From: Eubacteriales bacterium
Lineage (GTDB): Bacteria > Bacillota > Clostridia > Lachnospirales > Lachnospiraceae
DNA length: 35,497 bases
Direction: 5' to 3'
NCBI GenBank assembly: GCA_030533235.1
Contig: JAUNJN010000024.1
Coordinates: forward strand, 1 to 35,497
A model generated the notes under the pieces. That model saw only the letters and a list, made by a program, of their open reading frames with translations. It was not told where the DNA came from and made no database searches. Positions 8,185 through 32,287 of this stretch are shown in pieces. The position numbers and the translations under genes were made by a program. Numbering within the stretch: the first letter of the stretch is position 1; each line of letters starts with the position of its first letter.

Positions 8185-8213
8185 TTGACAAAAAAACCAT
8201 AAAATGTAATTAT
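8185..8213 (+). promoter_or_regulatory. Promoter for the amino acid symporter
   Basis: TTGACA (8185-8190), then 17 bases, then AATTAT (8208-8213) preceded by TG one base upstream, an extended -10. The ATG is about 30 bases after the -10. Confidence 0.6.
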
Positions 8214-8244
8214 AAATTGATTAAATAAAGAGGGGTATATACGG

Positions 8245-9828: not shown

Positions 9829-9852
9829 ACAATGTTGCGGAGGTATGGAATC

Positions 9853-10314: not shown

Positions 10315-10332
10315 TGAAAGGGAGGGGTTGTT

Positions 10333-10674: not shown

Positions 10675-10677
10675 GAT

Positions 10678-11022: not shown

Positions 11023-11025
11023 AAA

Positions 11026-14190: not shown

Positions 14191-14214
14191 GAAAATGGAA
14201 AGAGGGGCATATGT

Positions 14215-15714
14215 ATGAGTACGATTTTAATTATCCCTATGGCAATATTGATAATTGCAGGTCTTGTATTACTCATTTGGTCATTTGTTGAGCATATTCG
14301 GTGTAAGGGAGTATATGAAGAAAAACATACAGGAATTGCGCAAAGTATTTTTTTGATTGCACTGTTCGTTTCGGCAGGAATTGTTGTTTATCTTGCGTTG
14401 GGCAAGGAACGAAGCGTGACATTGTTCTATCTGATGAATAACATTCCGATTTATTTCAAAATCGATGAAATAGGTCGATGGTTTGTGTTGATTGTAACGA
14501 TTGTATGGTTACTTGTCGGAATATACAGCATCAGGTATCTTCGTCATGAAGGCGAGCAAAAACGGTTTCTTGGCTTTTTTTTGCTTGTGTATAGTGTATT
14601 GATCGGTTTGGATTTTTCCGGAAATTTAGTAACGATGTATCTGTTTTATGAGCTGATGACATTGACGTCATTCCCACTTGTTTTACACAATGGAAGCAAA
14701 GAAGCAATTATGGCGGCATTAAAATACCTGTTCTACTCGATGGCAGGTGCTTATATGGGCTTGTTCGGAATATTTTATCTGCAGCATATGATGGGTGATC
14801 TTACCTTTGTTGCAGGTGGTGCGATAGGACGTGCTTTCTTTGATGAAAATAAAGCATTGATGTTAGTTGCATTTTTTATTATGATACTTGGATTTGCGGT
14901 AAAGGCCGGACTTTGTCCGTTACATGCATGGCTTCCGACTGCGCACCCGGTAGCTCCGTCACCGGCATCTGCGGTTTTATCCGGTATTATTGTGAAATCC
15001 GGTGTGCTTGCAATTATCCGTGTGATTTTTTATCTGATTGGACCTGAGATGCTTCGCGGAACATGGGTAATCACAGTATTATTAATTTTGTCGCTTGTGA
15101 CGGTATTTATGGGATCATTGCTTGCCTTTCGTGAGCCGGTTCTAAAAAAGAGACTTGCGTATTCTACAGTCAGTCAGGTGTCCTATATACTGTTTGGTAT
15201 TTTTTTGCTTACACCGAAGGCTCTGACCGGTGCTTTGCTGCAGGTCGCTTTTCATGCAATTGTAAAATGCGGATTGTTCCTGGTTGCGGGTGTTTTCTTG
15301 TATGAGCATCATGTAAAGCGTGTCGATGAGCTGGTCGGAATCGGACGAAGGATTCCGGTTACACTTTGGAGTTATACATTTCTTTCTTTGTCATTAATCG
15401 GTATACCGCCGATGAGTGGATTTGTCAGTAAATGGTTTTTGGCACAGGGCGCGCTTGTGAGTGGTACCGGTGTGTTTGAAATTATCGGACCGATTGTTTT
15501 ACTTGTGAGTGCTCTGCTTACTGCCGGATATTTGATGCCGATTACGATGAAAGGATTTTTCCCGGGAGAGGAAGCGGCATCCGAAAAAGTAAAAGAAACA
15601 TCGCTTTGGATGTTGGTTCCGATTGTGGTGCTGACTGTATTTGCGTTTGTACTTGGTGTTTTTCCAAATGGACTTATAGATTATGCCGATAAAATTGCGG
15701 CATTACAATGGTAA
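14215..15714 (+). CDS. Antiporter-like subunit D, copy 2 (ND2/4/5 family)
   Basis: 499 residues, about 14 membrane helices. Key residues: E146 (FYELMTL), K230 (FAVKAGLCPLHAWLPTAH), K261 in TM8 (IIVKSGV) and K406 in TM12 (GFVSKWF), so the full proton/ion relay is kept. The HAWLPTAHPVAP stretch is close to HyfB/MbhH/NuoM-type subunits. It follows copy 1 by 24 bases with its own AGAGGGG. It is an additional D-type subunit beyond the standard Mrp set. Confidence 0.9.
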   Translation: MSTILIIPMAILIIAGLVLLIWSFVEHIRCKGVYEEKHTGIAQSIFLIALFVSAGIVVYLALGKERSVTLFYLMNNIPIYFKIDEIGRWFVLIVTIVWLLVGIYSIRYLRHEGEQKRFLGFFLLVYSVLIGLDFSGNLVTMYLFYELMTLTSFPLVLHNGSKEAIMAALKYLFYSMAGAYMGLFGIFYLQHMMGDLTFVAGGAIGRAFFDENKALMLVAFFIMILGFAVKAGLCPLHAWLPTAHPVAPSPASAVLSGIIVKSGVLAIIRVIFYLIGPEMLRGTWVITVLLILSLVTVFMGSLLAFREPVLKKRLAYSTVSQVSYILFGIFLLTPKALTGALLQVAFHAIVKCGLFLVAGVFLYEHHVKRVDELVGIGRRIPVTLWSYTFLSLSLIGIPPMSGFVSKWFLAQGALVSGTGVFEIIGPIVLLVSALLTAGYLMPITMKGFFPGEEAASEKVKETSLWMLVPIVVLTVFAFVLGVFPNGLIDYADKIAALQW

Positions 15715-15726
15715 GGAGGGGATTGT

Positions 15727-17196
15727 ATGAACAGAATCATTATGTTTGCAGTCATTCTTCTTCCAATTATCGGAGGAAGTCTGATTCCGATATTACCGTT
15801 TAAAACAAGACAACGTATGATGTTTTATATTGAGGCACTTTGCGTAATTAATTCTGTGCTTGTATGTTCTATGCTGTTCTATCAGCCGAATGAGGTGTTT
15901 ACATTGTTTCGGTTTAGCGGAGATTTATCCGTGACACTTCATTTGGACGGACCGGGTAAAATGTTTTGTGCATTGGCCGCCATTATGTGGCCGTTTGCGG
16001 TGCTTTATTCATTTGAGTATATGAAGCATGAGGAAAGAGAAAAAGGCTTCTTTATGTTTTACATCATAACCTATGGAATTACACTCGGTGTGGCTTTGTC
16101 GGAAAATATACTGACTATGTATTTCTTCTTTGAAATGATGAGTCTTGTAACACTTCCGCTTGTGATGCATACGCATACGCGAGAGGCAATTTTGGCAAGT
16201 AGGACGTATTTGTATTTTATGTTAGGCGGTGCGGCCTTTGCATTTATCGGGATGGTGTTTATCCTTTCGTACGGCACAACCTCAAGCTTTCTGCCGGGCG
16301 GCATTATCGACATGGCAAAGCTGGATGGAAAGACAGATATGATGCTGCTTGTATATGTATTCAGTTTCTTTGGATTTGGAATCAAGACTGCCATCTTTCC
16401 GTTTGGCAGATGGCTTCCGAAGGCTTCGGTTGCACCAACACCTGTTACGGCGTTACTACATGCAGTTGCGGTTGTTAACACAGGCGCTTTTGCTGTAATG
16501 CGAATTACGTATTACAGCTTTGGAACCAATTTACTGCGTGGAACATGGGCACAGGATGTTGTCATGCTTTTTGTTATATTTACAATCGTGTACGGTTGCA
16601 GCAGGGCAGTAAAGGAAACGCATTTAAAACGCAGACTTGCATGGTCTACGGTTAGTAATTTATCGTATATTTTGTTCGGTGTAGTGATTATGACACCGGA
16701 GGGTGCATGTGGTGCGTTATGCCATATGCTTTTCCATTCGTTTATGAAGATTACGTCATTTTTCTGCGCCGGAGCCATTATTTACAAAACGGGTAAAAAT
16801 TATGTACATGAACTAAATGGATTTGGGAAAAAAATGCCAAAGATATTTTGTATTTTTACGGTTTCGGCAATGGCATTGATGGGAGTTCCGGGACTGGCAG
16901 GCTTTATTAGTAAGTGGTCACTCGTGAGGGCCGCATTTGCATCGGAGAATATTCTGGCTTATGTCGGTGTAGGAGCATTACTTGTTTCGGCGTTGCTTAC
17001 AGCGATTTATATGCTGACAATCTGCGTACGAGCTTTTTTCCCGGGAAAAGAGTTTGATTACAGTACGATTTCGGATGTGAAGGATCCGAATATGCTTATG
17101 ATTGTTCCGCTTTGCGTATTTTTGGCTTTTGTAATTTATTTTGGTATACATCCACAGTATGTACTTACTTTCTTATCGGGAATTGATTTTGTATAG
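15727..17196 (+). CDS. Antiporter-like subunit D, copy 3 (NuoL/MrpA-N-like)
   Basis: 489 residues, about 14 membrane helices. E136 (FFEMMSL), K220 (FGIKTAIFPF) and K396 (GFISKWSL) are present, but the TM8 lysine position is asparagine (N251 in VVNTGAF), with H245 just upstream in LLHAVAV. The segment APTPVTALLHAVAVVNTG closely follows the NuoL/ND5 pattern PTPVSALIHAATMVTAG, where a histidine serves in TM8. Of the four D-like proteins this is the best candidate for the N-terminal part of a split MrpA. FGRWLP replaces the usual FHAWLP. It starts 12 bases after copy 2, with AAGGAGGGG. Confidence 0.88.
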   Translation: MNRIIMFAVILLPIIGGSLIPILPFKTRQRMMFYIEALCVINSVLVCSMLFYQPNEVFTLFRFSGDLSVTLHLDGPGKMFCALAAIMWPFAVLYSFEYMKHEEREKGFFMFYIITYGITLGVALSENILTMYFFFEMMSLVTLPLVMHTHTREAILASRTYLYFMLGGAAFAFIGMVFILSYGTTSSFLPGGIIDMAKLDGKTDMMLLVYVFSFFGFGIKTAIFPFGRWLPKASVAPTPVTALLHAVAVVNTGAFAVMRITYYSFGTNLLRGTWAQDVVMLFVIFTIVYGCSRAVKETHLKRRLAWSTVSNLSYILFGVVIMTPEGACGALCHMLFHSFMKITSFFCAGAIIYKTGKNYVHELNGFGKKMPKIFCIFTVSAMALMGVPGLAGFISKWSLVRAAFASENILAYVGVGALLVSALLTAIYMLTICVRAFFPGKEFDYSTISDVKDPNMLMIVPLCVFLAFVIYFGIHPQYVLTFLSGIDFV

Positions 17197-17208
17197 GAGG
17201 GAAAGAAG

Positions 17209-19245
17209 ATGAATGAAAATATGTTAATCAGTTTAATCTTTTCACCCTTCGTGATGGGAATAGTCGCTTTCGCTGTGGGCAAGAAACACCATACCGTGCG
17301 AGATTATCTTACAATCGGTTATATGCTATGTATGCTGACGGGGATGTTGTATCTGGCGTATAATATCGTTTCAAGCGGTGAGACTCTTTATGTAGAAATA
17401 CCGGAAATATGCGGCTTTGGTCTCTTCTTTGAAATGGATGGATTTCGGGCGATTTACGCCTCTGTCGCAGTTTTAATGTGGACGATGACGGCTTTGTTTT
17501 GTAAGGAGTATTTCTGCCATCACAAGCACACAAGCAGATTTTACTTATTTTACCTGTTTACACTTGGTGCAACACTCGGAGTATTTTTATCCGGAGATTT
17601 GATGACAACCTTTGTGTTCTTTGAAATTATGTCATTTACATCATATGTCTGGGTTGCACAGGAAGAAAACCGTGCGTCGCTGCGTGCGGCAGAAACCTAT
17701 CTGGCGGTTGCGGTCATCGGTGGACTTGTGATGCTTATGGGTATTTTTATGCTCTATGCAAGAATCGGTTCTTTGCGAATTGATGACCTGATTCTCGTTG
17801 GAATGTCTGACCGATATACGATGATTGCAGGCGGATGTATGTTGTTTGGATTCTGTGCGAAGGCAGGTGCATTCCCGCTTCATATATGGTTGCCAAAGGC
17901 ACATCCGGTCGCACCGGCACCGGCTTCTGCGTTATTGTCCGGTATTCTAACAAAGACGGGTATATACGGAACACTTATATTAAGCTGTCGATTGTTCCAT
18001 AATAATGCACAGTGGGGCATGCTTATATTATGTCTTGGTGTGATTACGATGTTTGGCGGTGCATTACTTGCTGTTTTCTCGATTGATGTGAAGCGTATTC
18101 TTGCATGCTCTTCCATGTCGCAGATTGGCTTTATTCTGATCGGTATCGGTATGCAGGATTTACTGCAGGAGGAAAACCAGCTTGCCTTACACGGAACGAT
18201 GCTTCATATGATGAATCATTCGCTCATAAAGCTTGTTTTGTTTATGGTAGCAGGTGTCATTTATATGAATCTTCATGCGCTTGATTTAAATGTCGTTCGC
18301 GGATATGGTTGTAAAAAGAAGGTACTTATGGTAAGTTTTCTTATAGGTGCACTTGCCATTATGGGTATCCCGATGTTTGGTGGGTATATCAGCAAGACAT
18401 TACTTCATGAAAGTATTGTGGAATATGGCGGCGGCATGCTGTTTCATGTGATTGAATGGGTATTTCTAGTCTCAGGTGGTATGACGATTGCTTATATGAC
18501 GAAGCTGTTTGTTGCCATATTTATTGAGAAGAACAATGACCGGGAACTTCAACATAATTATGATTTAAAATCCAAATATATGTCAAAAGGTTCTATGACT
18601 GCGATATGCGCAAGCAGCTTGATTTTATTTGTAATTGGGTTGTTTCCAAACAGGATTATGGAAAAGCTTGCGATTTCCGGCGAATTCTTCCTCGGAGCAG
18701 AGTATGAGCAACATCGTGTCGTAGATTTTTTCTCCCTTGAGAATCTGAAAGGTGCGGCAATATCAATTACAATCGGAGCAATCTTGTATTTGTTTGTAGT
18801 CCGTAAGCTGCTTATAAAGGATGGAGAGTATGTAAACAGATGGCCAAAACGTCTTGACTTGGAAGATCTGTTATACAGACCGATTTTACTTCGTTTTCTT
18901 CCGTTTGTTTTTGGCGTAATTTGTCGATGTATAGATTGTTTGCTTGACACGATTGTAGTTGCTTTTCGAAAGACTCTTTTTAAAGACAGTCCTTTGCCAT
19001 ATGAGCGGACGGAAGGAACTGCATTTACGGAATTGCTCGGACATATATGCAATGGTTGGCAGATTATTATGAATAAGACATTTCACAAGAAGTCACCGCA
19101 AAAAAAGGATTATGTACATCTTATGGCAATGAAGCACTTTGCAGCAAAGGAAAATCATTCGATTATCCAAAGAAGTTTATCCTTCGGTCTTTTGCTGTTT
19201 TGCGTCGGAATTACGATTACCCTGATTTATATTGTGTTAATGTAA
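17209..19245 (+). CDS. Antiporter-like subunit D, copy 4, with long C-terminal extension
   Basis: 678 residues: a 14-helix antiporter-like core (to about 490) and an extra ~185 residues. Core residues are complete: E139 (FFEIMSF), K218 (FCAKAGAFPLHIWLPKAH), K249 (ILTKTGI) and K396 (GYISKTLL). The extension has a further helix (ISITIGAILYLFVV), a basic amphipathic stretch, and a final C-terminal helix (LLLFCVGITITLIYIVLM). A long tail of this sort recalls the lateral helix extension of NuoL, though I cannot show homology. AGGAGGG precedes the ATG. It is the last antiporter gene, and the kinase gene starts 5 bases later. Confidence 0.9.
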   Translation: MNENMLISLIFSPFVMGIVAFAVGKKHHTVRDYLTIGYMLCMLTGMLYLAYNIVSSGETLYVEIPEICGFGLFFEMDGFRAIYASVAVLMWTMTALFCKEYFCHHKHTSRFYLFYLFTLGATLGVFLSGDLMTTFVFFEIMSFTSYVWVAQEENRASLRAAETYLAVAVIGGLVMLMGIFMLYARIGSLRIDDLILVGMSDRYTMIAGGCMLFGFCAKAGAFPLHIWLPKAHPVAPAPASALLSGILTKTGIYGTLILSCRLFHNNAQWGMLILCLGVITMFGGALLAVFSIDVKRILACSSMSQIGFILIGIGMQDLLQEENQLALHGTMLHMMNHSLIKLVLFMVAGVIYMNLHALDLNVVRGYGCKKKVLMVSFLIGALAIMGIPMFGGYISKTLLHESIVEYGGGMLFHVIEWVFLVSGGMTIAYMTKLFVAIFIEKNNDRELQHNYDLKSKYMSKGSMTAICASSLILFVIGLFPNRIMEKLAISGEFFLGAEYEQHRVVDFFSLENLKGAAISITIGAILYLFVVRKLLIKDGEYVNRWPKRLDLEDLLYRPILLRFLPFVFGVICRCIDCLLDTIVVAFRKTLFKDSPLPYERTEGTAFTELLGHICNGWQIIMNKTFHKKSPQKKDYVHLMAMKHFAAKENHSIIQRSLSFGLLLFCVGITITLIYIVLM

Positions 19246-19249
19246 GCTT

Positions 19250-20437
19250 GTGAAAAAAGTGAAATGTTCTTGGAATAGGGATGATATGATGCTTGGTATA
19301 CTATCTCAGATAATTTTGATAATACTTCTTACAATGGTGGCAATTGTATCAGGTGCCAATTCGATTGTATTGATTTTGATTGTATCGGCTTTGCTTGGTG
19401 TAATGGTATACCATTCATTTTTTGAGGAACAAAATGTGTATCTTACGGTTAGCGAAATTGCTTTGATGCTGGCATTTTGCGTTGTATCGTCCAATTTTAC
19501 CGGTTTTTTGATTCTGTTTTTCCTAAAGGATATTAAAATACCTTTTCGAATGGGACTTGGGATGGCAGCATTTTGGTGTATCAGCCTTTGGTCAGAACAC
19601 AATCGTTCTCTGGCGTTTCATATATTATTATCACTTGTTTTGTTTTTGATGTTTGTTGTTTTTGCGTTCGCGGAGATTATGACAAGACGTATATTGGAGC
19701 GAAAACAGCAGGAACGAAAAAAAATCGTGTTGGCGAATATTAGTGAGATGCATGAAAAACGGTTAAATGAGCAGTTGGTTATGCAAAATAGGATTTCTGA
19801 ACGAAATGCAAGACTTGTTGAACGTGAAAATATTAGTCGAAATATTCATAACAGTGTAGGCCATTCCATTACGGCTGCGATTATGACTTTGGATGCAGCA
19901 GACATGCTTTATGAAGTTAAGCCGGATGAAGCAAGAAAGAAGATGAACGATGCAAATGAAAGAATCCGCGGAAGCTTAGAGTCGATACGAAGAGCGGTTC
20001 GTGTACTGGATGAGGAAAATAAAACACTTTTTGTAAGAGATTTGAAGGCAGAGCTTGGTACGATTGCTTCGGAATTTATGATGGATACCAGTATTGAAAT
20101 ATATTGTAATTTTCATGATATGGAGGATGAGGTAGTAATGCCGCATGATTATGTTGTATTTCTTACGAGTGTTTTGCAGGAGTTACTTACAAATGGTGTA
20201 AAGCATGGAAATGCAACGGAATTTCTTGTCGTTTTATTTGGAGATTCGGCACATGTAAGCCTGAAAATATCTGATAATGGACGAAGTGATTTTAATGATC
20301 AAAATTATGCCCAAAGAATTGAGCATGGTTTTGGACTAAAAAAAATTGTTTCTTATGTTGAAAAGGTCGGAGGATGTGCAAGGTTTAAAAACGAGCAGGG
20401 TTTTCAGGCTATTATTGAGTTGCCGATTGTTTTTTGA
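19250..20437 (+). CDS. Sensor histidine kinase (HisKA_3 / DesK-LiaS type)
   Basis: 395 residues: five to six membrane helices (about 12-140) without an extracellular domain, a coiled coil, a HisKA_3 dimerisation domain with phosphorylatable H200 in SRNIHNSVGHS, and a C-terminal HATPase (N box ELLTNGVKHG, G1 SDNGRSD, G2 HGFGLKKI). The residue after the histidine is Asn rather than the Asp/Glu normally used as catalytic base in this subfamily. The start is uncertain: GTG at 19250 has no clear ribosome binding site; ATG at 19286, after AATAGGG, is an alternative. It is co-transcribed with the antiporter genes, and the response regulator follows after 10 bases. Membrane-embedded sensing without a loop domain suits detection of membrane state or ion stress (inference). 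Confidence 0.88.
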   Translation: MKKVKCSWNRDDMMLGILSQIILIILLTMVAIVSGANSIVLILIVSALLGVMVYHSFFEEQNVYLTVSEIALMLAFCVVSSNFTGFLILFFLKDIKIPFRMGLGMAAFWCISLWSEHNRSLAFHILLSLVLFLMFVVFAFAEIMTRRILERKQQERKKIVLANISEMHEKRLNEQLVMQNRISERNARLVERENISRNIHNSVGHSITAAIMTLDAADMLYEVKPDEARKKMNDANERIRGSLESIRRAVRVLDEENKTLFVRDLKAELGTIASEFMMDTSIEIYCNFHDMEDEVVMPHDYVVFLTSVLQELLTNGVKHGNATEFLVVLFGDSAHVSLKISDNGRSDFNDQNYAQRIEHGFGLKKIVSYVEKVGGCARFKNEQGFQAIIELPIVF

Positions 20438-20447
20438 GGAGGAAAAC

Positions 20448-21086
20448 ATGGGAGAGTATCGAATTCTTCTTGTGGATGATGAAAATCTATTATTGGATAG
20501 TTTGGAAATCATTCTTACGTTAAATCATATGGAAATTATCGGAAAGGCAAATGACGGAAACGAGGCGTTGCAGATTTTGGAGAAAACGTGCGGAACATGT
20601 GACATTGCGCTTGTAGACCTTAATATGAAGGGCATGGGTGGAATCGAGCTCATCTCGTTTATGAAAAAGCAATTTCCAAAGATTAAGGTGTTGGTACTTA
20701 CGACATTTTACGATGATAAAAATATTACAGATGCGATTGCGGGCGGTGCAGAAGGATATTTATTGAAAGACAGCGGGAAGGATGCCATATTGGGAGCGAT
20801 TCATCAGATTATGGGAGGAAGTACGGTGCTTGACCAGAAGGTTATGGCACGACTTTCGGAGCTTATGATGAGGCATACGGCAAATGATAATCCGAGTACT
20901 ATGACCTATGAGCTTACAGACAGGGAACAGGAAATCAGTGCACTTATGGTAGAAGGACTTACAAATCGGCAAATTGCGGATCGCTTATATATTTCAGAAG
21001 GAACTGTCAAAAATTACATATCAAACATCTATGATAAAACAGGCATTCATGACAGAGTAAAATTAATAGTAGAGCTTCGCAAATAA
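20448..21086 (+). CDS. Response regulator, NarL/LuxR (FixJ) family
   Basis: 212 residues: a receiver domain (1-120) with the acidic pair in LLVDDEN, phospho-acceptor D57 (LVDLNMKG), T in LTTFYDD and K in YLLKDS, then a LuxR-type helix-turn-helix (about 150-212) with LTDREQEISALM, GLTNRQIADRL and ISEGTVKNYISNIYDKTGI. The start is ATG 20448, preceded by GAGGAGG (20436-20442); the frame is open further upstream inside the kinase gene but without receiver homology. It is the partner of the kinase just before it. Plausible targets are its own antiporter operon or the ABC operon 95 bases downstream; no operator was identified. Confidence 0.93.
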   Translation: MGEYRILLVDDENLLLDSLEIILTLNHMEIIGKANDGNEALQILEKTCGTCDIALVDLNMKGMGGIELISFMKKQFPKIKVLVLTTFYDDKNITDAIAGGAEGYLLKDSGKDAILGAIHQIMGGSTVLDQKVMARLSELMMRHTANDNPSTMTYELTDREQEISALMVEGLTNRQIADRLYISEGTVKNYISNIYDKTGIHDRVKLIVELRK

Positions 21087-21130
21087 GACTGTGGTCATAT
21101 GGAAAATATGACCGCAGTCACTTTTTTTTT
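21087..21130 (+). terminator. Terminator closing the antiporter/two-component operon
   Basis: A 14-bp stem, GACTGTGGTCATAT (21087-21100) with ATATGACCGCAGTC (21106-21119), one G-T wobble, followed by nine Ts. Confidence 0.9.
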
Positions 21131-21180
21131 GTTGGAAGAATCGTTAAGATAATCACAGAACACAAAAAAGGAGAATCGCT

Positions 21181-22338
21181 ATGAAGAGCAAATTATCAGC
21201 AACAAAGTTTGTTGCGAACAATAAAAAGCAGGTCTGGGTCATGATGCTTGCTTTATCTATGACATTTATGACGATGTATCTGATAAATTTTTTGTTTATG
21301 ACAACGCAGGAAAGCTATCAGGTATTATGCTTCGAACAACCCAAAAAGGTTGCATTTGTAAATTTAAGTCTTGAGACGATGGGGCTTTCGTATAGTGATG
21401 ATTTGTCGGATGAGGACTGGAATCGTCGATATAATGACAGGAAAAATGAAATTATGGAGAAAATTCGGTTATGTGACGGAGTGTCGGATGTGTTTTATAC
21501 GCAGACGCTGAATGCACAATATAAGGGACTTGTCGGAAGTATCGGATATGATTTTCCGCTCCTTGAGGCATCTCAAATTCAATCCTATTTGGACCATATG
21601 GATGCAAAGCTTGTATCCGGAAGAATGCCGCAAAATGCAGGTGAAATATTAGTTGATGAAATAATCTACAAAAATCAGCATATGAAGCTGGATGGATATT
21701 TTATGGAGGATGCATTTGGAAAGGTGTTTCGGGTTGTCGGTGTTGTAAAGTCAGACTACATGATTTGTGTCGGAATACCGGACGGATTTACAAATACCGG
21801 TTGGTATATGGTTGTTTTATGTAACGAAGATACCTGCAATATGAAAAACTTATTAAACCGGATAGGAATACAACCGACAGAGTATGATGGGATTTGTGAC
21901 GTGGTTCATTGGAAGGAGGATTATAATGAGTGGATGTCGCAATTAAATGCATCCTTGCTCGGTATTTTGCTTGTCGTCATGATTATTTTAGCAATATCGA
22001 TTTTGGTTGCTTATGTATCATTTATGAGAAGTCGGGTCAGTGAGTATTGTCTATATATCTCCATCGGATATTCAAGAAAGGATATTTATACAATGATGAT
22101 GAAAGAAGTCGGGATCATCTTTGGAGTAAGTATTGTTCTTGGCAGCGTGATTTCGTTACCGGTAATGTTTGCCTTTGGTCATTTTGTGTTAGATAATATA
22201 GGACTTTTATATCGTTATTTTTATCCGGAGCATTTACTTCGAATTCTTGCGGCGTATGCGGCAATTATAGCATTTTTGCAAATACCGATGATTTTAACGA
22301 TCAATAAGATAAAAACTGTAGATGAAGTAGAGGAATAA
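21181..22338 (+). CDS. ABC transporter permease, FtsX/MacB-like (first)
   Basis: 385 residues with the FtsX-type topology: one N-terminal helix (about 20-42), a large extracellular domain (about 45-250) and three C-terminal helices (about 257-285, 310-335, 351-372). SIGYSRKDIYTMMMKEV in the cytoplasmic loop after the second helix matches the G-x-x-x-x-D-I/L coupling-helix region of FtsX permeases. AAAGGAG precedes the ATG. It heads a permease-ATPase-permease set. Such systems act in lipoprotein trafficking, antimicrobial-peptide resistance or mechanotransmission to cell-wall enzymes; which applies here is not visible. The two-component system just upstream suggests stress regulation. Confidence 0.85.
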   Translation: MKSKLSATKFVANNKKQVWVMMLALSMTFMTMYLINFLFMTTQESYQVLCFEQPKKVAFVNLSLETMGLSYSDDLSDEDWNRRYNDRKNEIMEKIRLCDGVSDVFYTQTLNAQYKGLVGSIGYDFPLLEASQIQSYLDHMDAKLVSGRMPQNAGEILVDEIIYKNQHMKLDGYFMEDAFGKVFRVVGVVKSDYMICVGIPDGFTNTGWYMVVLCNEDTCNMKNLLNRIGIQPTEYDGICDVVHWKEDYNEWMSQLNASLLGILLVVMIILAISILVAYVSFMRSRVSEYCLYISIGYSRKDIYTMMMKEVGIIFGVSIVLGSVISLPVMFAFGHFVLDNIGLLYRYFYPEHLLRILAAYAAIIAFLQIPMILTINKIKTVDEVEE

Positions 22339-22354
22339 GGTTAGGAGGAACACA

Positions 22355-23047
22355 ATGATTAATATTAGTAATGTGAGTATGATATATGATATGAATTCGG
22401 ATGATAAAATGTATGCTTTAAATGGATTTGATTTAAAGCTTCCGGATACAGGACTTGTTGGAGTGGTTGGTCCATCCGGAAGTGGAAAAAGTACACTTAT
22501 GTATGTGATGTCCACATTAAAGAACCCGACAGAGGGTAGTATTATTTATAACGATAAGGAGCTTACAACACTTACGAATAAGCAGAGAGAGGATATCCGA
22601 AGAAATGAATTTGGCTTTGTGTTTCAAAAGCATTATCTTGTTCCGTATATGAACGCATTGGATAATGTTCTTGTGGCTTCGACCAGTGATAAGAAAGAGG
22701 CACAGGAGAAGGCAAGAAATTACCTGGAGGCACTTGGACTAGGGGAAAGAGAGTTTGGGAAAAAGCCTTCAAAACTATCAGGAGGACAATGTCAGAGAGT
22801 TGCGATTGCAAGAGCAATGATCAATAATCCAAAGGTCGTTTTTGCAGATGAGCCTACTGCTTCTCTAGATCATGAAAACGCATTCAACGTTATGAAAATT
22901 TTGAAGAAGTATGCGGAGGATAAGCTCGTAATCGTTGTAACACACGATCGTTCCGTGTTATCGGATGTGGATATATTGGTTGAAATGTGGGATGGAAAGC
23001 TAAGTAAGGTTTCTTCGGCAGAAGAGAGAGGAATGGACAATGAGTAA
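22355..23047 (+). CDS. ABC transporter ATP-binding protein (LolD/MacB type)
   Basis: 230 residues with all ATPase motifs: Walker A GPSGSGKST (residues 39-47), Q-loop FVFQKHYLVPYMNALDNV, signature LSGGQCQRVAIARAM, Walker B VFADEPTASLD and switch VTHD. QK in the Q-loop and the VPYMNALDNV sequence are typical of MacB/LolD ATPases that pair with FtsX-like permeases. The ribosome binding site is TTAGGAGGA. The 3' end overlaps the following permease by 8 bases, so they are translated together. Confidence 0.95.
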   Translation: MINISNVSMIYDMNSDDKMYALNGFDLKLPDTGLVGVVGPSGSGKSTLMYVMSTLKNPTEGSIIYNDKELTTLTNKQREDIRRNEFGFVFQKHYLVPYMNALDNVLVASTSDKKEAQEKARNYLEALGLGEREFGKKPSKLSGGQCQRVAIARAMINNPKVVFADEPTASLDHENAFNVMKILKKYAEDKLVIVVTHDRSVLSDVDILVEMWDGKLSKVSSAEERGMDNE

Positions 23048-24143
23048 AGGGAATCCGTATTCAGCATTATATTATATAAAAGAAAATAAAGGGAAAAGCA
23101 TTTTGTGTATTTTTATGATGTTTCTTGCAACACTTATGTTTCTGACAGGAAACTATATTCAATCGGTGCTTGCAACATTTGACAAGGATTTTTTGTACGG
23201 AGATACAATCGTTCGGGTAAATATGCTTAGTACCGATGTAAAACAAGAGGATTTTAAGGCATTTTCTGAGATGGTCGAGCAGGATGAAAGGCTGAAATCC
23301 GTAAAAGTAACCGGATATGGATTCGGTAGCCTGACACATAGTACGGTGCTTGGATTTGAGATGAGTGGGAGATCGTATGTATTTCGGTCTTTGGAAGATA
23401 TGGAAAATGTGTTTGCACGTCTTAATATTGAAGGTGATTTTTCATCCTGCGGACATCGAAGTATTATTATAAGCAAGGAACTTGCGAAAAACAGAGGGAT
23501 AGAGCTTGGAGATACAATTGATCATGCGTTTGATCCGAATTTGGACGGAGCATATACAGTGGACGCGTTGATTGATGACGGAGGCTATTGTACATTTTAC
23601 ATATTTGAAGACGATGATAATTTGGTACGGCTTTATATTTACAGTGATTCTATGGAAGGAAAAGAGTTATATGATTATGTAAGAAATCTTGCAGGTGACA
23701 AAAGGGTTCAGATATCGGAAACGGAACGAGACGTTGTGCTTCCGCAGTTATCCATATTTTATATCGTATTTTACATCGTAGATATTTTGATAGCGATTGT
23801 GCTTGCCGTGACAGTGAATTCGGTTGTTACCGGACAGTATTTAAAGAGAACTTATGAGTTTGGTGTATACAGAGCTCTGGGACGAAGTAAAAAAGATATA
23901 TGGAAAAAGGTTGCGGCAGAAATACTTATTATGAATCTTTTTGCATGTGCACTAGGATTTTGCGTAATGTTTCTATATACATATTTAGTCAATGAACTTT
24001 ATTATACGCAAAAAGGGTTGCATCTACTTTATGCGTCAAAAGCAGGCTTCTTTGGATTATTAATATGTGAAACATTGATTGTGGTTCCGCTTATCTTTGC
24101 AAAAGCAAAAAAAATGAGCCGGGCGGATGTTACACAATTTTAG
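23040..24143 (+). CDS. ABC transporter permease, FtsX/MacB-like (second)
   Basis: 367 residues: N-terminal helix (about 15-37), extracellular domain (about 40-230) with MacB-periplasmic-core-like features, and three C-terminal helices (about 235-262, 293-318, 335-355). GVYRALGRSKKDIWKKVAAE is the permease coupling region. It differs clearly from the first permease, so the transporter is probably a heterodimer of the two around an ATPase dimer. It ends 3 bases before the -35 of the next promoter; no terminator was seen. Confidence 0.87.
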   Translation: MSKGNPYSALYYIKENKGKSILCIFMMFLATLMFLTGNYIQSVLATFDKDFLYGDTIVRVNMLSTDVKQEDFKAFSEMVEQDERLKSVKVTGYGFGSLTHSTVLGFEMSGRSYVFRSLEDMENVFARLNIEGDFSSCGHRSIIISKELAKNRGIELGDTIDHAFDPNLDGAYTVDALIDDGGYCTFYIFEDDDNLVRLYIYSDSMEGKELYDYVRNLAGDKRVQISETERDVVLPQLSIFYIVFYIVDILIAIVLAVTVNSVVTGQYLKRTYEFGVYRALGRSKKDIWKKVAAEILIMNLFACALGFCVMFLYTYLVNELYYTQKGLHLLYASKAGFFGLLICETLIVVPLIFAKAKKMSRADVTQF

Positions 24144-26601: not shown

Positions 26602-27993
26602 ATGAAACATAGAAAAAAAAGAATGAATACATGGAGGCGTGTCATTGTCCTTGTGCTAATTGTATCGCTGACACAGGTTTTGATGGCATGTAATAAAAAG
26701 GAGACGGAGAATTTTCCGATCACAATTACGGTATGGCACGTATATGGGGAACAGACGAACTCTCCGTTAAATGACATGATTGATACGTTTAATGAAACGG
26801 TTGGAAGAGATAAAGGCATCCGCGTGCAGGTAAATGTCGTTTCCAATACAAGCGATATTCATGAAAGTGTACTTCGTGCTGCAAATCATGAGCCCGGAGC
26901 CGGGGAACTGCCGGATATGTTTATCTCGTATCCAAAGACAGTGCTGGCGCTTCCGGATAAAGATATACTTGTTGATTATCATGATTATTTTTCGGAAGAT
27001 GATTTGTCGGATTATATTCCTGAGTTTATTGAAGAGGGAGAAATTGATGGTAAGCTGATGGTTTTCCCGATTGCGAAGTCGACCGAGGTTCTGTTCGTAA
27101 ACAAGACAATTTTTGATCGCTTTGCTGCGGAAAAAAATGTTTCCCTGTCAGATCTTTCAACATGGGAGGGATTGTTTGAGGTATCAAAACAGTATTATGA
27201 ATGGACGGATGCAAAGACGCCGGATATTCCAAACGACGGTAAGACATTTTTAGTAAATGACTATCATTTCAATTACTATCAGGTTGGTGTAGCTTCACTT
27301 GGAGAGAACTTTTTTGAAGGTGAGGGAACAGGTATTAAGGATAGCGATACACTGGAGCGGATTTACAGGTTGTATGCAGACGCGGCAATTGGTGGTGCTG
27401 TATGGTTAGGGAATGGTTTTGCAACAGAGGCATTGCGAACCGGAGATGTCGTATGTAGTGTTGCATCCTCAGCAAGTGTCTTGTATTATGACGATTATGT
27501 TGTTTATCCGGATAACACGAAGGAACAGGTGGAGTTTATTGCTATGCCGGTTCCGGTCTTTAAAGGTGGCGAAAAACTGGTCATGCAGCGTGGCGCCGGA
27601 TTTTGTACAGTGAAATCCACACCTGAAAAGGAACGTGCGGCATGTGTTTTTCTTGAATGGTTGACGGATCCTGAAAATAACGTTCCGTTAGTGACAAGTC
27701 TTGGCTATATGCCGGTTACAAACGAGGCATTTGACAGGATGCCGGAAGCTATTCTTACAATTGATAGTCCAAAATATAGAAGCTTATATGAAGCATTTGT
27801 AGAAACACAGAAGAACTATACATTTTATTCTGCTCCAAAATATGATGATTATTTAAGTCTTGAAACAAAGGTAGAAAGCTTTAGTCGATCAAAGATGCTT
27901 GCAGAACGAGATAATCTGCTTTCGGAAACTGATACGGATATTGAACATATTATTGATATTAGTTATGAGGAATTTAAATCGATAACGCCGTAA
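26602..27993 (+). CDS. ABC-type solute-binding lipoprotein (family 1, UgpB-like)
   Basis: 463 residues. A basic N-terminus and hydrophobic helix end in the lipobox LMAC with C30 as the lipidated residue; the mature part opens with ITVWHVYGEQTNSPLNDMID, the characteristic start of family 1 (sugar-type) binding proteins, and has FPIAKSTEVLFVNKTIFDRF in the hinge region and RGAGFCTVKSTPEKERAACV in the second lobe. It would be tethered outside the membrane and bind an organic ligand, perhaps a sugar. No ABC permease or ATPase is nearby. Instead the next gene, 14 bases on, encodes a membrane sensor with a DNA-binding domain, so this protein may act as a ligand-presenting co-sensor. AAGGAG precedes the ATG. 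Confidence 0.9.
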   Translation: MKHRKKRMNTWRRVIVLVLIVSLTQVLMACNKKETENFPITITVWHVYGEQTNSPLNDMIDTFNETVGRDKGIRVQVNVVSNTSDIHESVLRAANHEPGAGELPDMFISYPKTVLALPDKDILVDYHDYFSEDDLSDYIPEFIEEGEIDGKLMVFPIAKSTEVLFVNKTIFDRFAAEKNVSLSDLSTWEGLFEVSKQYYEWTDAKTPDIPNDGKTFLVNDYHFNYYQVGVASLGENFFEGEGTGIKDSDTLERIYRLYADAAIGGAVWLGNGFATEALRTGDVVCSVASSASVLYYDDYVVYPDNTKEQVEFIAMPVPVFKGGEKLVMQRGAGFCTVKSTPEKERAACVFLEWLTDPENNVPLVTSLGYMPVTNEAFDRMPEAILTIDSPKYRSLYEAFVETQKNYTFYSAPKYDDYLSLETKVESFSRSKMLAERDNLLSETDTDIEHIIDISYEEFKSITP

Positions 27994-28007
27994 ACGAGGA
28001 TTTAGAT

Positions 28008-29612
28008 ATGAAGAAGCGATTGCGTAATATTGTTTTACAATTTAAAACTGAGTTTCGGGATAACATGACATTAGGTCAGAAGATACGTATTTATATGCTG
28101 CTGGTTGCATTTGTAACGGTATTAATCGGTGTTGTATTTCTTGTAGCTACAGGATCATGGAATATTGAGAAAAAGACCATTGGTTCTCATCTTCGTTATG
28201 AGCTTGCAGCAACATACAGTCAATTAGAAGATGAAATAAATTTATATGAGGGTTATGGACTTGCTTTATCAAGAACACTTGGAAAAATACTTGATAATGA
28301 GTTGTATAACGGAATTAAGGATATTTCAAGTCTTGATAACAATGCAGATAAATTGCTGGAATTGCAGGAAAAGATGTTTGGTGAGATAAATACAACATTG
28401 CAAATGGCAGGAAGCAGCGGCGTGTTTGTTGTTTTGGATACGACGACAAACAGTCAGGCTCCAAATGCTGAGAATTCCAGAAGTGGTTTATACATACGTT
28501 TGAAAAATGTTGGGGATGATGTCGCGTTTAAGCAAACATATAGTTTCTTCCGAGGCATTCCGGATGTTGCGCATTCGCATGATATCGAAATGAATACAAG
28601 ATGGAATCTTGAATTTAATATCGATAATCTTCCGTATTACAAAGAGATGATGGAATCGGGAGGAAATGCGGAAGTTGATTATTATTGGACGGAACGCATA
28701 CAGCTGGAGGGAACATGGCAAAATGTAATTTTATTGTGCTTTCCTATCTACAGTGCGCAGGGAACATTATATGGGATGTGTGGAATCGAGTTAAGTGCAT
28801 TGTATTTTCAAAATCAGTATCCTTCTGTGGATAGTGATTTTGGTAAAGTAGTTATGGTGTTGGCTCCTATGGAAGATGGTGTGCTTATGACCTCGGAGGG
28901 CATGACCGGCGGAACAGATGGTACATGGTTAAGTGCAGACGATAACCTGAAATACCGTAAAACAAAACCTTATAATATCTATCAATCCGAGGAAACAGCT
29001 TATTTTGGATTGCAAAAGTCAATCTCAATCAATAGCTGCCAAGGAAAAGACTGGCAGGTTGTGGTATTGATTCCAAAAGAAAGCTGTCAGAGTGTAATTA
29101 TGACAGGAAATATGAAGTATACGGTTTTGCTCATTGTATTGTTAATCGTTATGGTTGTATTATCAATCATTCTATCGCGGCGAATTGTACGACCGATTCA
29201 AAAAGGTGTTGAGGATATTAAAGAAAAAGGAATTATTAATCAGAAAACGTTTGGTATTAAAGAGTTTGATTCTTTGATTGAATATTTAAACGATAAAATG
29301 GAAAACGATGAGATAAAGCAAAAGGAACTTCCGAATGGGGTTGAGGAATTATTTGATCGATTTGTTCAGGGAGTTGATAAACTGAGCAAAGCGGAATACC
29401 GGGTTTTTCAATGTTATTTGGATGGTTACCAGGTGGCACAGGTGCCTGAGGTTGCATTTATCAGTATGAGTACGGTGAAAAAGCATAATCGCAGTATATA
29501 TGAAAAACTGGGAGTATCATCTTACGATGAACTTATGCTTTATCTTGATATGCTGGAACGATGTGACAGACGAAATTTAGTTATTCGAAACGAAGAAGAC
29601 GCAGATGAATAA
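28008..29612 (+). CDS. Membrane-bound sensor with Cache-like domain and LuxR-type HTH
   Basis: 534 residues. TM1 about 30-50; extracellular domain about 52-365 with dCache-like features (DTTTNSQAPNAENSRSGLYI, YYKEMMESGGNAEVDYYW); TM2 about 370-390; a short HAMP-like linker (SRRIVRPIQKGVEDIKEKG); then a LuxR/GerE helix-turn-helix (about 458-515) with LSKAEYRVFQCYL, STVKKHNRSIYEKLGV. There is no kinase, receiver or cyclase domain. The simplest model is a one-component regulator that senses outside the cell and binds DNA from the membrane, like CadC or ToxR but with a LuxR output. It forms an operon with the solute-binding lipoprotein. The 3' end overlaps its terminator, whose loop contains the stop codon. 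Targets are unknown; the palindrome at 29693-29711 is a candidate. Confidence 0.85.
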   Translation: MKKRLRNIVLQFKTEFRDNMTLGQKIRIYMLLVAFVTVLIGVVFLVATGSWNIEKKTIGSHLRYELAATYSQLEDEINLYEGYGLALSRTLGKILDNELYNGIKDISSLDNNADKLLELQEKMFGEINTTLQMAGSSGVFVVLDTTTNSQAPNAENSRSGLYIRLKNVGDDVAFKQTYSFFRGIPDVAHSHDIEMNTRWNLEFNIDNLPYYKEMMESGGNAEVDYYWTERIQLEGTWQNVILLCFPIYSAQGTLYGMCGIELSALYFQNQYPSVDSDFGKVVMVLAPMEDGVLMTSEGMTGGTDGTWLSADDNLKYRKTKPYNIYQSEETAYFGLQKSISINSCQGKDWQVVVLIPKESCQSVIMTGNMKYTVLLIVLLIVMVVLSIILSRRIVRPIQKGVEDIKEKGIINQKTFGIKEFDSLIEYLNDKMENDEIKQKELPNGVEELFDRFVQGVDKLSKAEYRVFQCYLDGYQVAQVPEVAFISMSTVKKHNRSIYEKLGVSSYDELMLYLDMLERCDRRNLVIRNEEDADE

Positions 29613-29692: not shown

Positions 29693-29711
29693 TGGTATAC
29701 CTGGTATACCA
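29693..29711. promoter_or_regulatory. Perfect 19-bp palindrome, candidate operator
   Basis: TGGTATACC-T-GGTATACCA is fully symmetric about the central base; each half is also the 8-bp palindrome GGTATACC. It lies 82 bases after the sensor gene and about 45 bases upstream of a promoter candidate, a position suited to an activator. No T tract follows, so it is not a terminator. Confidence 0.5.
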
Positions 29712-29755: not shown

Positions 29756-29784
29756 TTTACCATTTTATTGTTTCTGTATATGAT
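29756..29784 (+). promoter_or_regulatory. Weak promoter candidate for the mini-lipoprotein gene
   Basis: TTTACC (29756-29761), 17 bases, TATGAT (29779-29784). The -35 matches 4 of 6 consensus bases. The transcript would begin near 29791 and carry a small hairpin (CCGA/TCGG) before AGGAGG at 29840-29845. Confidence 0.45.
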
Positions 29785-29853: not shown

Positions 29854-30063
29854 ATGAAAAAGGTACGTAAGTTTGGAGCAATTGTTGGATTAATGGCAGT
29901 TATGATGTCAACACTTGCAGGTTGTGCAAAGAAGACAACATGTGAGGTTTGCGAAACAGAGCAAAAGTGTAAGCAGAAGGAATACCTTGGTGAGAAGATA
30001 TGGATCTGCGATGACTGTAAGTCACTTATGGATGCATTTATGAGTGGCGATCTTGAATTTTAG
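29854..30063 (+). CDS. Small cysteine-rich lipoprotein (zinc-ribbon-like)
   Basis: 69 residues. A lipoprotein signal (about 1-23) ends in LAGC; the mature part has CEVC, a lone C in KCKQKEYLG, and CDDC, spaced like a short zinc ribbon (CxxC...CxxC), with EYLGEKIWICDDC resembling the treble-clef knuckles of small zinc-binding domains. AGGAGG lies 8 bases before the ATG. The function is unknown; a metal-binding or redox-active cell-surface peptide is possible. The next two genes also encode proteins built around zinc-ribbon modules, so this trio may share a role. Confidence 0.82.
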   Translation: MKKVRKFGAIVGLMAVMMSTLAGCAKKTTCEVCETEQKCKQKEYLGEKIWICDDCKSLMDAFMSGDLEF

Positions 30064-30155: not shown

Positions 30156-31514
30156 ATGGGACTGATTAAAGCTGCATTTGGCTCTTTTGGCGGGGTAATG
30201 GCAGAGCAATGGAAAGAATATTTCTATTGTGAGTCAATGGAAAAAGATGTTCTTGTTGTAAAGGGCATGAAGCGTGCAGGTGGCAATTCATCCAATACGC
30301 ATATACAGGACAATATTATTTCAAACGGTTCAACGATAGCAGTTGCCGATGGACAATGTATGATAATTGTGGATCAGGGAAAGGTAGTGGATATTTGCGC
30401 AGAACCGGGTGAATATACATACGATATGTCAACCGAACCGTCCCTTTTCAGTGGATCCTTAAGTGAAACAATTCCGCAAATTTTTAGCAATATCGGAAAA
30501 CGTTTTACATATGGAGGTGAACCTCCAAAGGACCAAAGAGTATATTATGTAAACACAAAAGAACTTCTTGGAAATAAATACGGGACTGCAAATCCGGTTC
30601 CGTTTCGAATTGTAGACAAAAATATCGGACTTGATATGGATGTGTCCGTAAAATGCTTTGGAGAATACAGCTACCGAATTACAAATCCAATTTTATTTTA
30701 TACAAATGTTTGTGGCAATGTACCGGATGTATATTTCAGAGATGAGATTGACAGTCAGCTGAAGTCAGAATTGCTTACAGCATTACAACCGGCTTTTGCA
30801 CGTATATCCGAAATGGGTATCCGATATTCTGCACTGCCGGGTCATACAATGGAGCTTGCGGATGCAATAAATAAAGTATTGTCTGCAAAGTGGCGCGATA
30901 CACGTGGAATAGAGATTGCGTCCATCGGTGTATCTTCAATTAAAGCATCGGATGAAGATGAGGCCATGATTAAAGAGTTGCAGAGAAATGCAACCTTCCG
31001 TGATCCGACAATGGCTGCCGCTCATCTTGTAGGTGCACAGGCTGCTTCTATGCAGGCTGCTGCAAAAAACGAGGGCGGTATGGGTGCAATGGGCGCATTC
31101 ATGGGAATGAATATGGCAGGAAATGCCGGCGGTATGAATCCACAGAGTTTGTTTGCCATGGGCCAGGCGCAACAACAGGCACAGCAACAGACACAGCCGG
31201 CTGCTCAACCACAGCCTGCCGCTGATTCATGGAAATGCGCTTGCGGAAATATTGTAAGCGGAAAGTTTTGTCCGGAGTGCGGCGCAAAGAAGCCGGAAGC
31301 AAGCGGAAGCGACAGTGTTGGCTGGCTTTGCAGTTGCGGAGCTACAAACAAAGGTAAGTTCTGCTTTGAGTGCGGTGCAAAGAAACCGGCCGGAGTACCA
31401 CAATATAAATGTGATAAGTGTGGCTGGGAACCTGCTGATCCGACAAATCCACCAAAGTTTTGTCCGGAATGCGGCGATCCGTTCGATGATGGTGATATTC
31501 AAGGAGGAAATTAA
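30156..31514 (+). CDS. SPFH domain protein with three C-terminal zinc ribbons (YdjI-like)
   Basis: 452 residues. Residues 1-295 form an SPFH/band-7-like domain of the YdjI (virion core protein) type: MGLIKAAFGSFGGVMAEQWK is the usual opening, and GQCMIIVDQGKVVDICAEPGE and PVPFRIVDKNIGLDMDVSV follow. Residues about 300-355 are a Gly/Met/Gln-rich linker (MGAMGAFMGMNMAG, QAQQQAQQQTQ). The C-terminus carries three four-cysteine zinc ribbons (about 361-383, 389-412, 418-446: CxCG..CPECG, CSCG..CFECG, CDKCG..CPECG). In Bacillus the homologue YdjI works at the membrane with PspA in envelope stress; no PspA gene is here. The start is ATG 30156 with GGAGGT upstream; the DUF4428 gene follows after 2 bases. 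Confidence 0.88.
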   Translation: MGLIKAAFGSFGGVMAEQWKEYFYCESMEKDVLVVKGMKRAGGNSSNTHIQDNIISNGSTIAVADGQCMIIVDQGKVVDICAEPGEYTYDMSTEPSLFSGSLSETIPQIFSNIGKRFTYGGEPPKDQRVYYVNTKELLGNKYGTANPVPFRIVDKNIGLDMDVSVKCFGEYSYRITNPILFYTNVCGNVPDVYFRDEIDSQLKSELLTALQPAFARISEMGIRYSALPGHTMELADAINKVLSAKWRDTRGIEIASIGVSSIKASDEDEAMIKELQRNATFRDPTMAAAHLVGAQAASMQAAAKNEGGMGAMGAFMGMNMAGNAGGMNPQSLFAMGQAQQQAQQQTQPAAQPQPAADSWKCACGNIVSGKFCPECGAKKPEASGSDSVGWLCSCGATNKGKFCFECGAKKPAGVPQYKCDKCGWEPADPTNPPKFCPECGDPFDDGDIQGGN

Positions 31515-31516: not shown

Positions 31517-32287
31517 ATGGGATTATTTGATAAAAAGTATTGTGATTTATGCGGAGAGAAGATTGGTCTTCTTGGCAACAAAAAGCTGGATGACGGTAAT
31601 TGCTGTAAAGAATGTGCCGGAAAGCTTTCTCCGTGGTTTAGTGAAAGAAGACATAGTACAGTAGAAGAAATAAAAAGCCAGCTTGAATATCGTGAAAATA
31701 ACCGTGCGGCTGTCGAAGCGTTTCATGCGACAAGAACCTTAGGCTACGGAATGAAGGTCTATTTAGATGAGGATAACAAAAAATTTCTGGTTACGCGTGC
31801 AAGAAATCTTGCGGAAGCAAACCCGGATGTTTTGGATTTTTCTCAGGTGACCGGTTGTACGCTTGACCTTGATGAGAGTTCTACGGAGGAGAAACAGGAA
31901 ATTCGTAGAGAGGACGGCACAATTGAGAGAGTCAGCTTTAGACCGCCAAGATATAATTACGGCTACGATTTGTTCTTAAACATTCATGTGAATCATCCAT
32001 ATTTTGATGAAATTCGCTTTAGAATCAATGAACATGAAATCCATATCAACGGAGTGGGGACCATGATGGGGCGTGATCCAAAACATATGAGTCGTGAATT
32101 GGAAGAATGTTATGAAATCGGCGAAGAAATTAAGAGCGTATTAACAGATGTGCGTGAGCAGGTACGTGAAGCGGCGATGAGTGCAAGTATGCCAAAGGTT
32201 GCAGTTACATGTCCTTGCTGCGGAGCAACTACAATGCCGGATGCAAGCGGATGCTGCGAATATTGTGGCGGAGCATTGAATGCATAA
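31517..32287 (+). CDS. DUF4428 protein with N- and C-terminal zinc ribbons
   Basis: 256 residues. The N-terminal DUF4428 ribbon is YCDLCGEKIGLLGNKKL with the second pair CCKEC; the C-terminal ribbon is CPCCG...CCEYCGG (about 231-252). Between them lies a globular alpha/beta region with LFLNIHVNHPYFDEIRFRIN, a pattern seen in DUF4428 proteins, followed by an amphipathic helix. It starts 2 bases after the SPFH gene, with AAGGAGG, and is followed by a terminator, so the two form one unit. Function unknown; metal-dependent protein-protein contact with the SPFH partner is an inference from shared ribbons and coupling. Confidence 0.85.
   Translation: MGLFDKKYCDLCGEKIGLLGNKKLDDGNCCKECAGKLSPWFSERRHSTVEEIKSQLEYRENNRAAVEAFHATRTLGYGMKVYLDEDNKKFLVTRARNLAEANPDVLDFSQVTGCTLDLDESSTEEKQEIRREDGTIERVSFRPPRYNYGYDLFLNIHVNHPYFDEIRFRINEHEIHINGVGTMMGRDPKHMSRELEECYEIGEEIKSVLTDVREQVREAAMSASMPKVAVTCPCCGATTMPDASGCCEYCGGALNA

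Follow-up and report, generated by a model that had tools for sequence, protein, structure and literature searches.

What is the role of a solute-binding lipoprotein whose gene stands beside that of a membrane-bound transcription regulator, with no transporter in the same operon? This question is raised by a stretch of 35,497 nucleotides (contig JAUNJN010000024.1 of the Lachnospiraceae assembly GCA_030533235.1, Eubacteriales bacterium), the whole of which is called the window here, and in which the gene of such a lipoprotein is followed by that of a sensor ending in a LuxR/GerE helix-turn-helix (HTH). The original prediction, drawn from the letters of the window, had proposed a one-component system, where the binding protein presents a ligand to a sensor acting on DNA from the membrane. 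This reading is supported by the conserved pairing of the two genes, by the HTH and by candidate operators, and the pair is probably a two-protein membrane-bound transcription switch controlling an envelope operon. A wider proposal is put forward more tentatively, with chances just short of even: the binding lipoprotein and its dCache-like sensor would be a widespread input module coupled to outputs of several kinds, namely cyclic di-GMP (c-di-GMP), kinase or direct DNA binding. The LuxR form, so far unrecognised, would regulate SPFH/AIM24/zinc-ribbon envelope genes directly and in one step, responding to an extracellular solute and using a clade-specific palindrome code.

Both open reading frames (ORFs) lie where they had been placed, on the plus strand and separated by 14 bp (Table 1). 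The lipoprotein matches SBP_bac_8 in Pfam (2.2e-32) over most of its length and carries a lipoprotein signal, as expected of a solute-binding protein, and the closest solved sequences in a profile search are sugar/UgpB-type binding proteins, in agreement with the predicted UgpB-like fold. Among 20 aligned homologues the lipobox Cys30 is invariant, and the alignment has 31 invariant columns. The sensor has a GerE-type HTH at residues 458-511 (5.6e-9, 35.9 bits against a curated cut-off of 23.5), as in LuxR/GerE regulators, and combines transmembrane (TM) segments and a DNA-binding domain on one chain, as in transmembrane one-component/co-component regulators. Besides GerE, no Pfam family, kinase and receiver included, scores above cut-off in it, and the lack of a Response_reg match in Pfam separates it from NarL-type response regulators. 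The AlphaFold2 model (mean predicted local distance difference test score, pLDDT, 82) has long helices at both TM places, a region of about 300 residues of alpha/beta structure between them, then a helical linker and a helical C-terminal domain. The predicted architecture of two TMs, a LuxR/GerE end and no Pfam kinase or receiver thus stands, while the Cache label is indirect: the sensor itself has no Pfam Cache match, and a sequence-profile comparison of its domain with the PDB gave no clear match (best 4wy9, E 0.03). Relatives with the same domain mostly have weak dCache_1/PDC matches, one of them (L099) above cut-off, and by this indirect homology the extracellular domain may be described as dCache-like.

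The pairing is ancient and conserved. A homologous lipoprotein is encoded directly upstream of the sensor, on the same strand, at 104 of 121 loci (37/42 LuxR-type and 67/79 with other outputs), with a median gap of 15 bp between the two genes. Of these loci, 29 were found via the binding protein (L149-L154, L178-L184, L186-L200, L216); in the sensor-first loci alone, by our own count, the binding protein is upstream in 37/42 LuxR loci and 38/50 others. Among the five LuxR-type loci that depart from this order, L064 and L202 lie at contig edges, L121 and L173 are broken, and only L038 truly lacks the binding protein; the twelve exceptions among other outputs are two contig edges, the broken L073, L097 with reversed gene order and eight loci without a binding protein. 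Approached from the binding protein (E <= 1e-50; 69 rows; 397 genomes), a sensor is found beside 66 of 68 genes, 63 of them seen in DNA and three (G033, G370:C29 and G046, 2.77 Mb) judged from coordinates; the two unpaired genes are at a contig edge (G177:C25) and in G295:C47. This search, in which the top four candidates per genome were scored, bounds the family sharply, with no full-length match between 1e-50 and 7e-111. Genome searches scored part of the candidates per genome, and the genome counts are therefore lower bounds: a sensor match in 33 of 397 genomes of the family, of which 20 hold the LuxR type (L032-L050 and the window), and sensor-domain profile matches in 57/392 genomes of the order and 19/388 of the phylum. 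Outside the 121 loci lie the order-search matches without fetched places and the sensors of G033, G370:C29 and G046 (2.77 Mb). In L121/G609 (7460-9580) a single ORF runs remnants of the binding protein into the sensor; a Rosetta-stone fusion was considered and rejected, because the ORF lacks portions of the former and the beginning of the latter, and it was treated as decay or misassembly.

Import permeases rarely accompany the pair. Among paired loci longer than 9 kb, and without L097, in which the binding-protein gene follows the sensor, a home-made permease model found import permeases within 3 kb in 2/78 and within 6 kb in 3/78. In a Pfam scan of 129 of 151 selected near neighbours, no ATP-binding cassette (ABC) import permease occurs among families with at least three members, and PF00528 matches at most 2/129. 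The association with an ABC permease and ATPase, under which solute-binding proteins are encoded, does not recur at these pairs, and a role for the lipoprotein as operon partner of an ABC importer was dropped since no permease recurs beside the pair. A listing of the best permease matches in 20 genomes was kept out of the distance counts. The neighbourhood count suggested with the original prediction thus came out in its favour, and the opposite pattern of a lipoprotein routinely encoded with ABC permeases and lacking a conserved partner was not found. Its statement that no ABC component lies nearby holds for import permeases, but not for the upstream region at 21181-24143, where an ABC ATPase and two FtsX-type permeases, not a binding-protein importer, are encoded with their own kinase and regulator.

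The same input is coupled to several outputs. Where the output of the other sensors is visible it is GGDEF, GGDEF-EAL or kinase, the class of other outputs also including six loci cut before the output domain and six not classed by motif labels. The same sensor domain and partner occur with GGDEF-EAL (L055), GGDEF by motif (L056, L057), HisKA-HATPase-receiver (L075, L085) and PAS-GGDEF-kinase-receiver (L089). In a tree of 117 sensor domains, from which broken and weak rows were left out, the 40 LuxR forms occupy one side of one branch (support 99), with the HTH present in 40/40 rows, and the remaining outputs mix on the far side; a tree of the binding protein (102 rows) has the same single LuxR split with support 100. 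Since the two trees share this split, partner and sensor have descended as a unit, and a single change is enough to account for the LuxR output. Homologues lacking the HTH, which would have counted against the prediction, exist only across this deep branch, with GGDEF, GGDEF-EAL or histidine kinase outputs, and because they mostly keep the binding protein, the input pair can be regarded as a plug-in module.

A candidate operator in the window, a perfect palindrome between the sensor and the next gene, is followed after 45 bp (our count) by a candidate promoter, and the same spacing is found in a relative, G1098 (L031; apparently the same assembly as G1128). Promoter-like matches in this region occur at chance number (15 found, 14.7 expected). 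The 17-bp core of the operator has, at up to 2 mismatches, this single site in the 2.28 Mb genome (G000), a rarity which is ordinary for sites of the GGTATACC form; only place and recurrence speak for it. In G1098 the pair is 82-85% identical to that of the window and lies on a different contig from the SPFH operon, and the single site of that genome stands upstream of the orthologous small lipoprotein-SPFH-DUF4428 operon, the distance to the start codon being 141 bp (our count). DNA similarity between the window and G1098 starts at the operator and continues into the gene, with the TTTACC-17-TATGAT candidate in both. Across 37 genomes of the genus, many of them incomplete, the sensor occurs in two and the SPFH gene in 20, and the site (up to 1 mismatch) is found in the same two; in the 18 with SPFH and without sensor, every match in the upstream DNA examined has at least 5 mismatches. 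The small lipoprotein gene upstream of SPFH is likewise found only in the two pair-bearing genomes which, being near relatives, represent one evolutionary event. Between these two (L262 against L261) the SPFH protein is 99% identical and the sensor only 82%, so that the sensor seems to be diverging far more quickly than the target presumed for it.

Table 1 Features of the pair and its presumed target operon, numbered along the window
Feature	Position	Strand	Basis
Solute-binding lipoprotein, sensor partner, 463 aa, SBP_bac_8	26602..27993	+	Pfam, ORF reading, alignment
Membrane sensor-regulator, 534 aa: TM1, extracellular domain, TM2, linker, LuxR/GerE HTH	28008..29612	+	Pfam, model, hydropathy
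TM1 region, residues about 22-54	28071..28169	+	Hydropathy; model helix 22-50
Extracellular alpha/beta domain, dCache-like by homology, residues about 55-361	28170..29090	+	Model; relatives' Pfam matches
TM2 region, residues about 362-397	29091..29198	+	Hydropathy; model helix 357-406
LuxR/GerE DNA-binding HTH, residues 458-511, recognition-helix motif VKKHN	29379..29540	+	Pfam, motif
Candidate operator, perfect 19-bp palindrome TGGTATACCTGGTATACCA	29693..29711	.	Palindrome scan; between sensor and next gene
Candidate promoter TTTACC-17-TATGAT	29756..29784	+	Consensus match only
Small Cys-rich lipoprotein, first gene of presumed target operon	29854..30063	+	ORF reading
SPFH/Band_7_1 protein with zinc ribbons, presumed target	30156..31514	+	Pfam
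DUF4428 zinc-ribbon protein, presumed target	31517..32287	+	Pfam

Beyond the genus, four loci (L032, L034, L035 and L064, with 0, 3, 3 and 2 mismatches, respectively) have their best GGTATACC-form match in an intergenic place no more than 180 bp past the sensor. At loci with other outputs no best match has fewer than 3 mismatches, and one of the three with exactly 3 is intergenic (L057, +323). A looser form, searched in 12 genomes, has one site each in seven of them, five at the expected place and two inside genes. The form did not carry over to other clades, and the idea of one universal operator was abandoned. An unbiased scan for odd-centred palindromes instead returned ATCAYMCY-N-RGKRTGAT-like sites; the resulting ATCA-type pattern, framed from L043, L046, L204, L207 and L214, occurs 15 times across 13 LuxR loci (633 kb) and not at all in other loci (871 kb) or in five simulated sets. 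Seven of the matching loci were not used in framing the pattern, several of these being close kin. Eleven of the 15 sites lie 18-190 bp before the binding-protein gene, two lie in L043 between the sensor and the next gene, and two more precede other genes. In 22 whole genomes, ATCA-type sites number 0-4 each and 29 in all, against one for the reversed pattern, and in 14 of the 18 LuxR-type genomes a site accompanies the pair or genes linked to it (12 of these observed in DNA; G817 and G1000 judged from coordinates). Four further genomes have only other outputs: two of them carry a single site each, located within a gene, and the remaining two lack the site altogether. Additional linked sites stand ahead of AIM24/zinc-ribbon genes in G1078 and ahead of a DUF4870-like gene in G1042. 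Among ten unlinked sites, G1062:C41 and G1078:C6 precede a related small protein (with a weak DUF4870 match in the latter) and then a similar lipoprotein, and the site G1042:C16 is followed by a lipoprotein gene close to a contig edge. The recognition-helix motif is KKHN in GGTATACC-form loci and KTHN in ATCA-form loci, a correspondence of half-site and helix which is what direct binding would give, yet which follows clades. Taken together, the candidate operators add support for an HTH acting on DNA.

The genes next to the pair may point to the envelope. Families that turn up repeatedly next to LuxR pairs, whether downstream or in divergent orientation, are SPFH, AIM24, zinc-ribbon and a 116-aa Cys-containing family; they are found within 6 kb in 15/31 LuxR loci and 0/41 others (Fisher p 2.6e-7, an optimistic value, since the choice of families was based on LuxR loci and no correction was made for kinship). 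In Bacillus, SPFH is linked to phage-shock responses. The neighbour test kept loci in which the pair has at least 3 kb to either side and the sensor match is 1e-20 or better, reducing the LuxR loci from 42 to 31 and the others from 79 to 41. Where it is treated in PMC8581546, the Bacillus subtilis SPFH protein YdjI is needed to bring PspA to the membrane, and we infer that the SPFH/AIM24/zinc-ribbon genes here are an envelope-stress set. The small Cys-rich lipoprotein of the window has no Pfam match. The sensor had been taken as the only operon partner of the binding protein; it is its adjoining partner, but the genes just downstream, from the small lipoprotein to DUF4428, also belong to the story.

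In the mechanism proposed, the binding lipoprotein would sit at the outside of the cell membrane and serve signalling alone, taking no part in import. Solute-loaded or emptied, it would dock on the extracellular dCache-like domain of a dimer of the two-TM sensor, and docking would shift the geometry of TM2 and the linker, allowing the paired cytoplasmic LuxR-type HTHs to bind an odd-centred palindrome of 17-19 bp. In the window the target would be the site at 29693-29711, about 45 bp upstream of the first promoter hexamer and ahead of the small lipoprotein-SPFH-DUF4428 operon; because this position fits activation, the envelope operon would most likely be switched on. In other clades related palindromes would serve before the pair itself and ahead of AIM24, zinc-ribbon or DUF4870-like genes. 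The computation shows the pairing, the scarcity of import permeases next to it, the order of the domains, the exchange of outputs, and the site with its distribution; that a ligand is bound, that the lipoprotein docks, that the HTH occupies the site and that the effect is activation, not repression, are all inferred steps of this scheme.

Several observations weigh against this account. On the side of the sites, the reversed-pattern control gives two sites in G000 against one for the motif, four against seven in the 12 genomes, and three against two in the 37 genus genomes, these three being in other genomes than the pair-bearing two. A GGTATACC site follows the sensor in five LuxR loci only (up to 3 mismatches), 5/12 genomes have none at up to 1 mismatch, L031 has none beside its own pair, and L037, L038 and L041 share the KKHN motif and lack the site. 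G1014, G845, G859 and G1085 have no ATCA-type site at the pair, seven of the ten unlinked ATCA-type sites are unclear or in unrelated genes, only two fitting clearly, and some KKHN and KTHN loci have neither palindrome form. On the side of the pair, a sensor without a binding protein occurs in L038 (G155), in L028 and in six distant loci with EAL-/GGDEF-type motifs (L099, L102-L106), and permeases lie about 3.3 kb away in L097.

The palindromes might alternatively be sites of another LuxR/NarL-family regulator, such as a nearby response regulator, with the sensor merely sharing the neighbourhood. TACC-N-GGTA cores are of a kind generally suited to NarL-family proteins. Seven loci have a kinase/NarL-regulator set close to the LuxR pair, upstream in L032, L034, L038 and L040 and downstream in L033, L039 and L118, and the window has one at 19250-21086, with the regulator at 20445-21086; no proven kinase partner of the sensor was found among them. 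Within the genus, however, the site occurs only where the sensor does (2/37), in the far clades the site precedes the pair itself, with a response-regulator-like ORF near L202 and L214 only, and the half-site tracks the recognition helix of the sensor (KKHN with GGTATACC, KTHN with ATCA), though following clades. This explanation is considered unlikely. Improbable to a similar degree is a lipoprotein acting as a structural or protective co-factor, in the manner of ToxS, beside a sensor which itself detects the signal, the lipoprotein binding no ligand. L038, which keeps its LuxR sensor without a binding protein, would suit it, and ToxR/ToxS and VtrA/VtrC, as portrayed in the sections consulted of PMC9214523, are two-gene membrane transcription factors with a periplasmic partner; against it, the lipoprotein retains a full binding-protein profile with the invariant columns given above, and the part of PMC8967002 describing NspS-MbaA presents a ligand-binding protein able to drive such a sensor. 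That the lipoprotein is an ordinary importer subunit with permease and ATPase encoded elsewhere, the sensor monitoring uptake, is very unlikely, as 66/68 members of its sharply bounded family adjoin a sensor, even though its PDB relatives are ABC sugar/UgpB binding proteins and the genome has at least 13 BPD_transp_1 matches.

For the preferred reading, a signalling lipoprotein coupled to a DNA-binding sensor, each half has a precedent. NspS-MbaA of Vibrio cholerae, in the portion of PMC8967002 available, has a binding-protein gene overlapping that of a membrane sensor controlled from outside, and the GGDEF-EAL relatives of the present family have the same gene layout, the likeness being one of layout and description. 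Here, in contrast, the output is a DNA-binding HTH and the partner is of sugar/UgpB type, NspS binding polyamines according to the same portion. In Salmonella, the response of the dCache_1 sensor STM1987 needs the periplasmic binding protein ArtI, as proposed here, but STM1987 is named among c-di-GMP enzymes, with an arginine signal, and not as a transcription factor in the excerpt seen of PMC8846402. DadR, HcdR and CadR of Eggerthella lenta are membrane-spanning LuxR-type activators like the present sensor; they have an N-terminal domain of 10-12 TMs, and no extracellular sensor domain or binding-protein partner is mentioned in the accessible text of PMC9734109. NspS-MbaA is thus the precedent for the docking half and the E. 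lenta activators for the DNA-acting half, as far as these extracts go. VtrA/VtrC and ToxR/ToxS share the two-gene cassette, in which a membrane-tethered transcription factor and an outside partner form the sensor, but unlike here their HTH is N-terminal and VtrC is lipocalin-like, and the word LuxR is absent from the text of PMC9214523 at hand. The sensor kinases activated by solute-binding proteins (PMC11113362, from the part available) also have adjoining genes; these signal via a histidine kinase, whereas the LuxR form has neither kinase nor receiver. LuxR, GerE and Cache have no occurrence in the main text of a survey of transmembrane transcription regulators (PMC10269533), and among the open-licence PubMed Central (PMC) papers that the searches listed none describes by its title the pairing of a binding lipoprotein with a membrane LuxR sensor. 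The system is regarded as a new variant: the parts are of known kinds, and their combination and the operator were not found described. If the reading is correct, it joins two ideas which the searches did not find combined, a binding protein acting as co-receptor, as in NspS-MbaA, and a membrane-spanning LuxR factor, as in E. lenta, and one extracellular input module serves several kinds of output. A candidate operator, a target operon and a genus control could be obtained from sequence alone, which makes the link from solute to envelope a testable question.

Further features were noted around these loci. In L038 (7949-8977, G155), the only intact LuxR-type sensor seen without a binding protein, a SpaA/FctA-like-domain protein is encoded instead. 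GGDEF-EAL-type proteins with the same sensor domain and without a binding protein occur in L099, L102, L104 and L106, and shikimate-pathway-like genes adjoin those of L099 and L102, the two mapped. Two to three palindrome-like sites about 31-42 bp apart lie between the sensor and the next gene in L034 and L064, and 39-121 bp after the sensor in L043; these rows suggest cooperative binding of several dimers. The palindrome scan also matched L033, L044 and one of two sites in L046, which were left uninterpreted. An enrichment of palindromes with a 3-base centre (18 in LuxR loci, 3 in others) was set aside, consisting largely of the same palindromes one base wider; of the six remaining matches, two are T-run-followed or terminator-like by eye. 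Also by eye, an ACTACCC..GGGTAG-like inverted repeat, possibly the operator form of another clade, was seen upstream of the binding-protein gene in L033, L118 and L040, and a TTTTGTCCCC-like element is common to the same position in L042, L045, L047 and L119.

Each of the seven kinase/NarL sets beside LuxR pairs comprises a large protein (7TM-kinase-like in L032), a HATPase-type kinase and a NarL-type regulator, and may perhaps be a second signalling layer on the same genes. In the window itself, the single run at 19250-24143 encodes a HisKA_3 kinase, a NarL-type response regulator, two FtsX-type permeases and an ABC ATPase, and resembles an independent ABC system governed by a two-component pair of its own. 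It is preceded, at 9832-19245, by a run of membrane genes which, by reading only, resembles a multi-subunit cation/proton antiporter.

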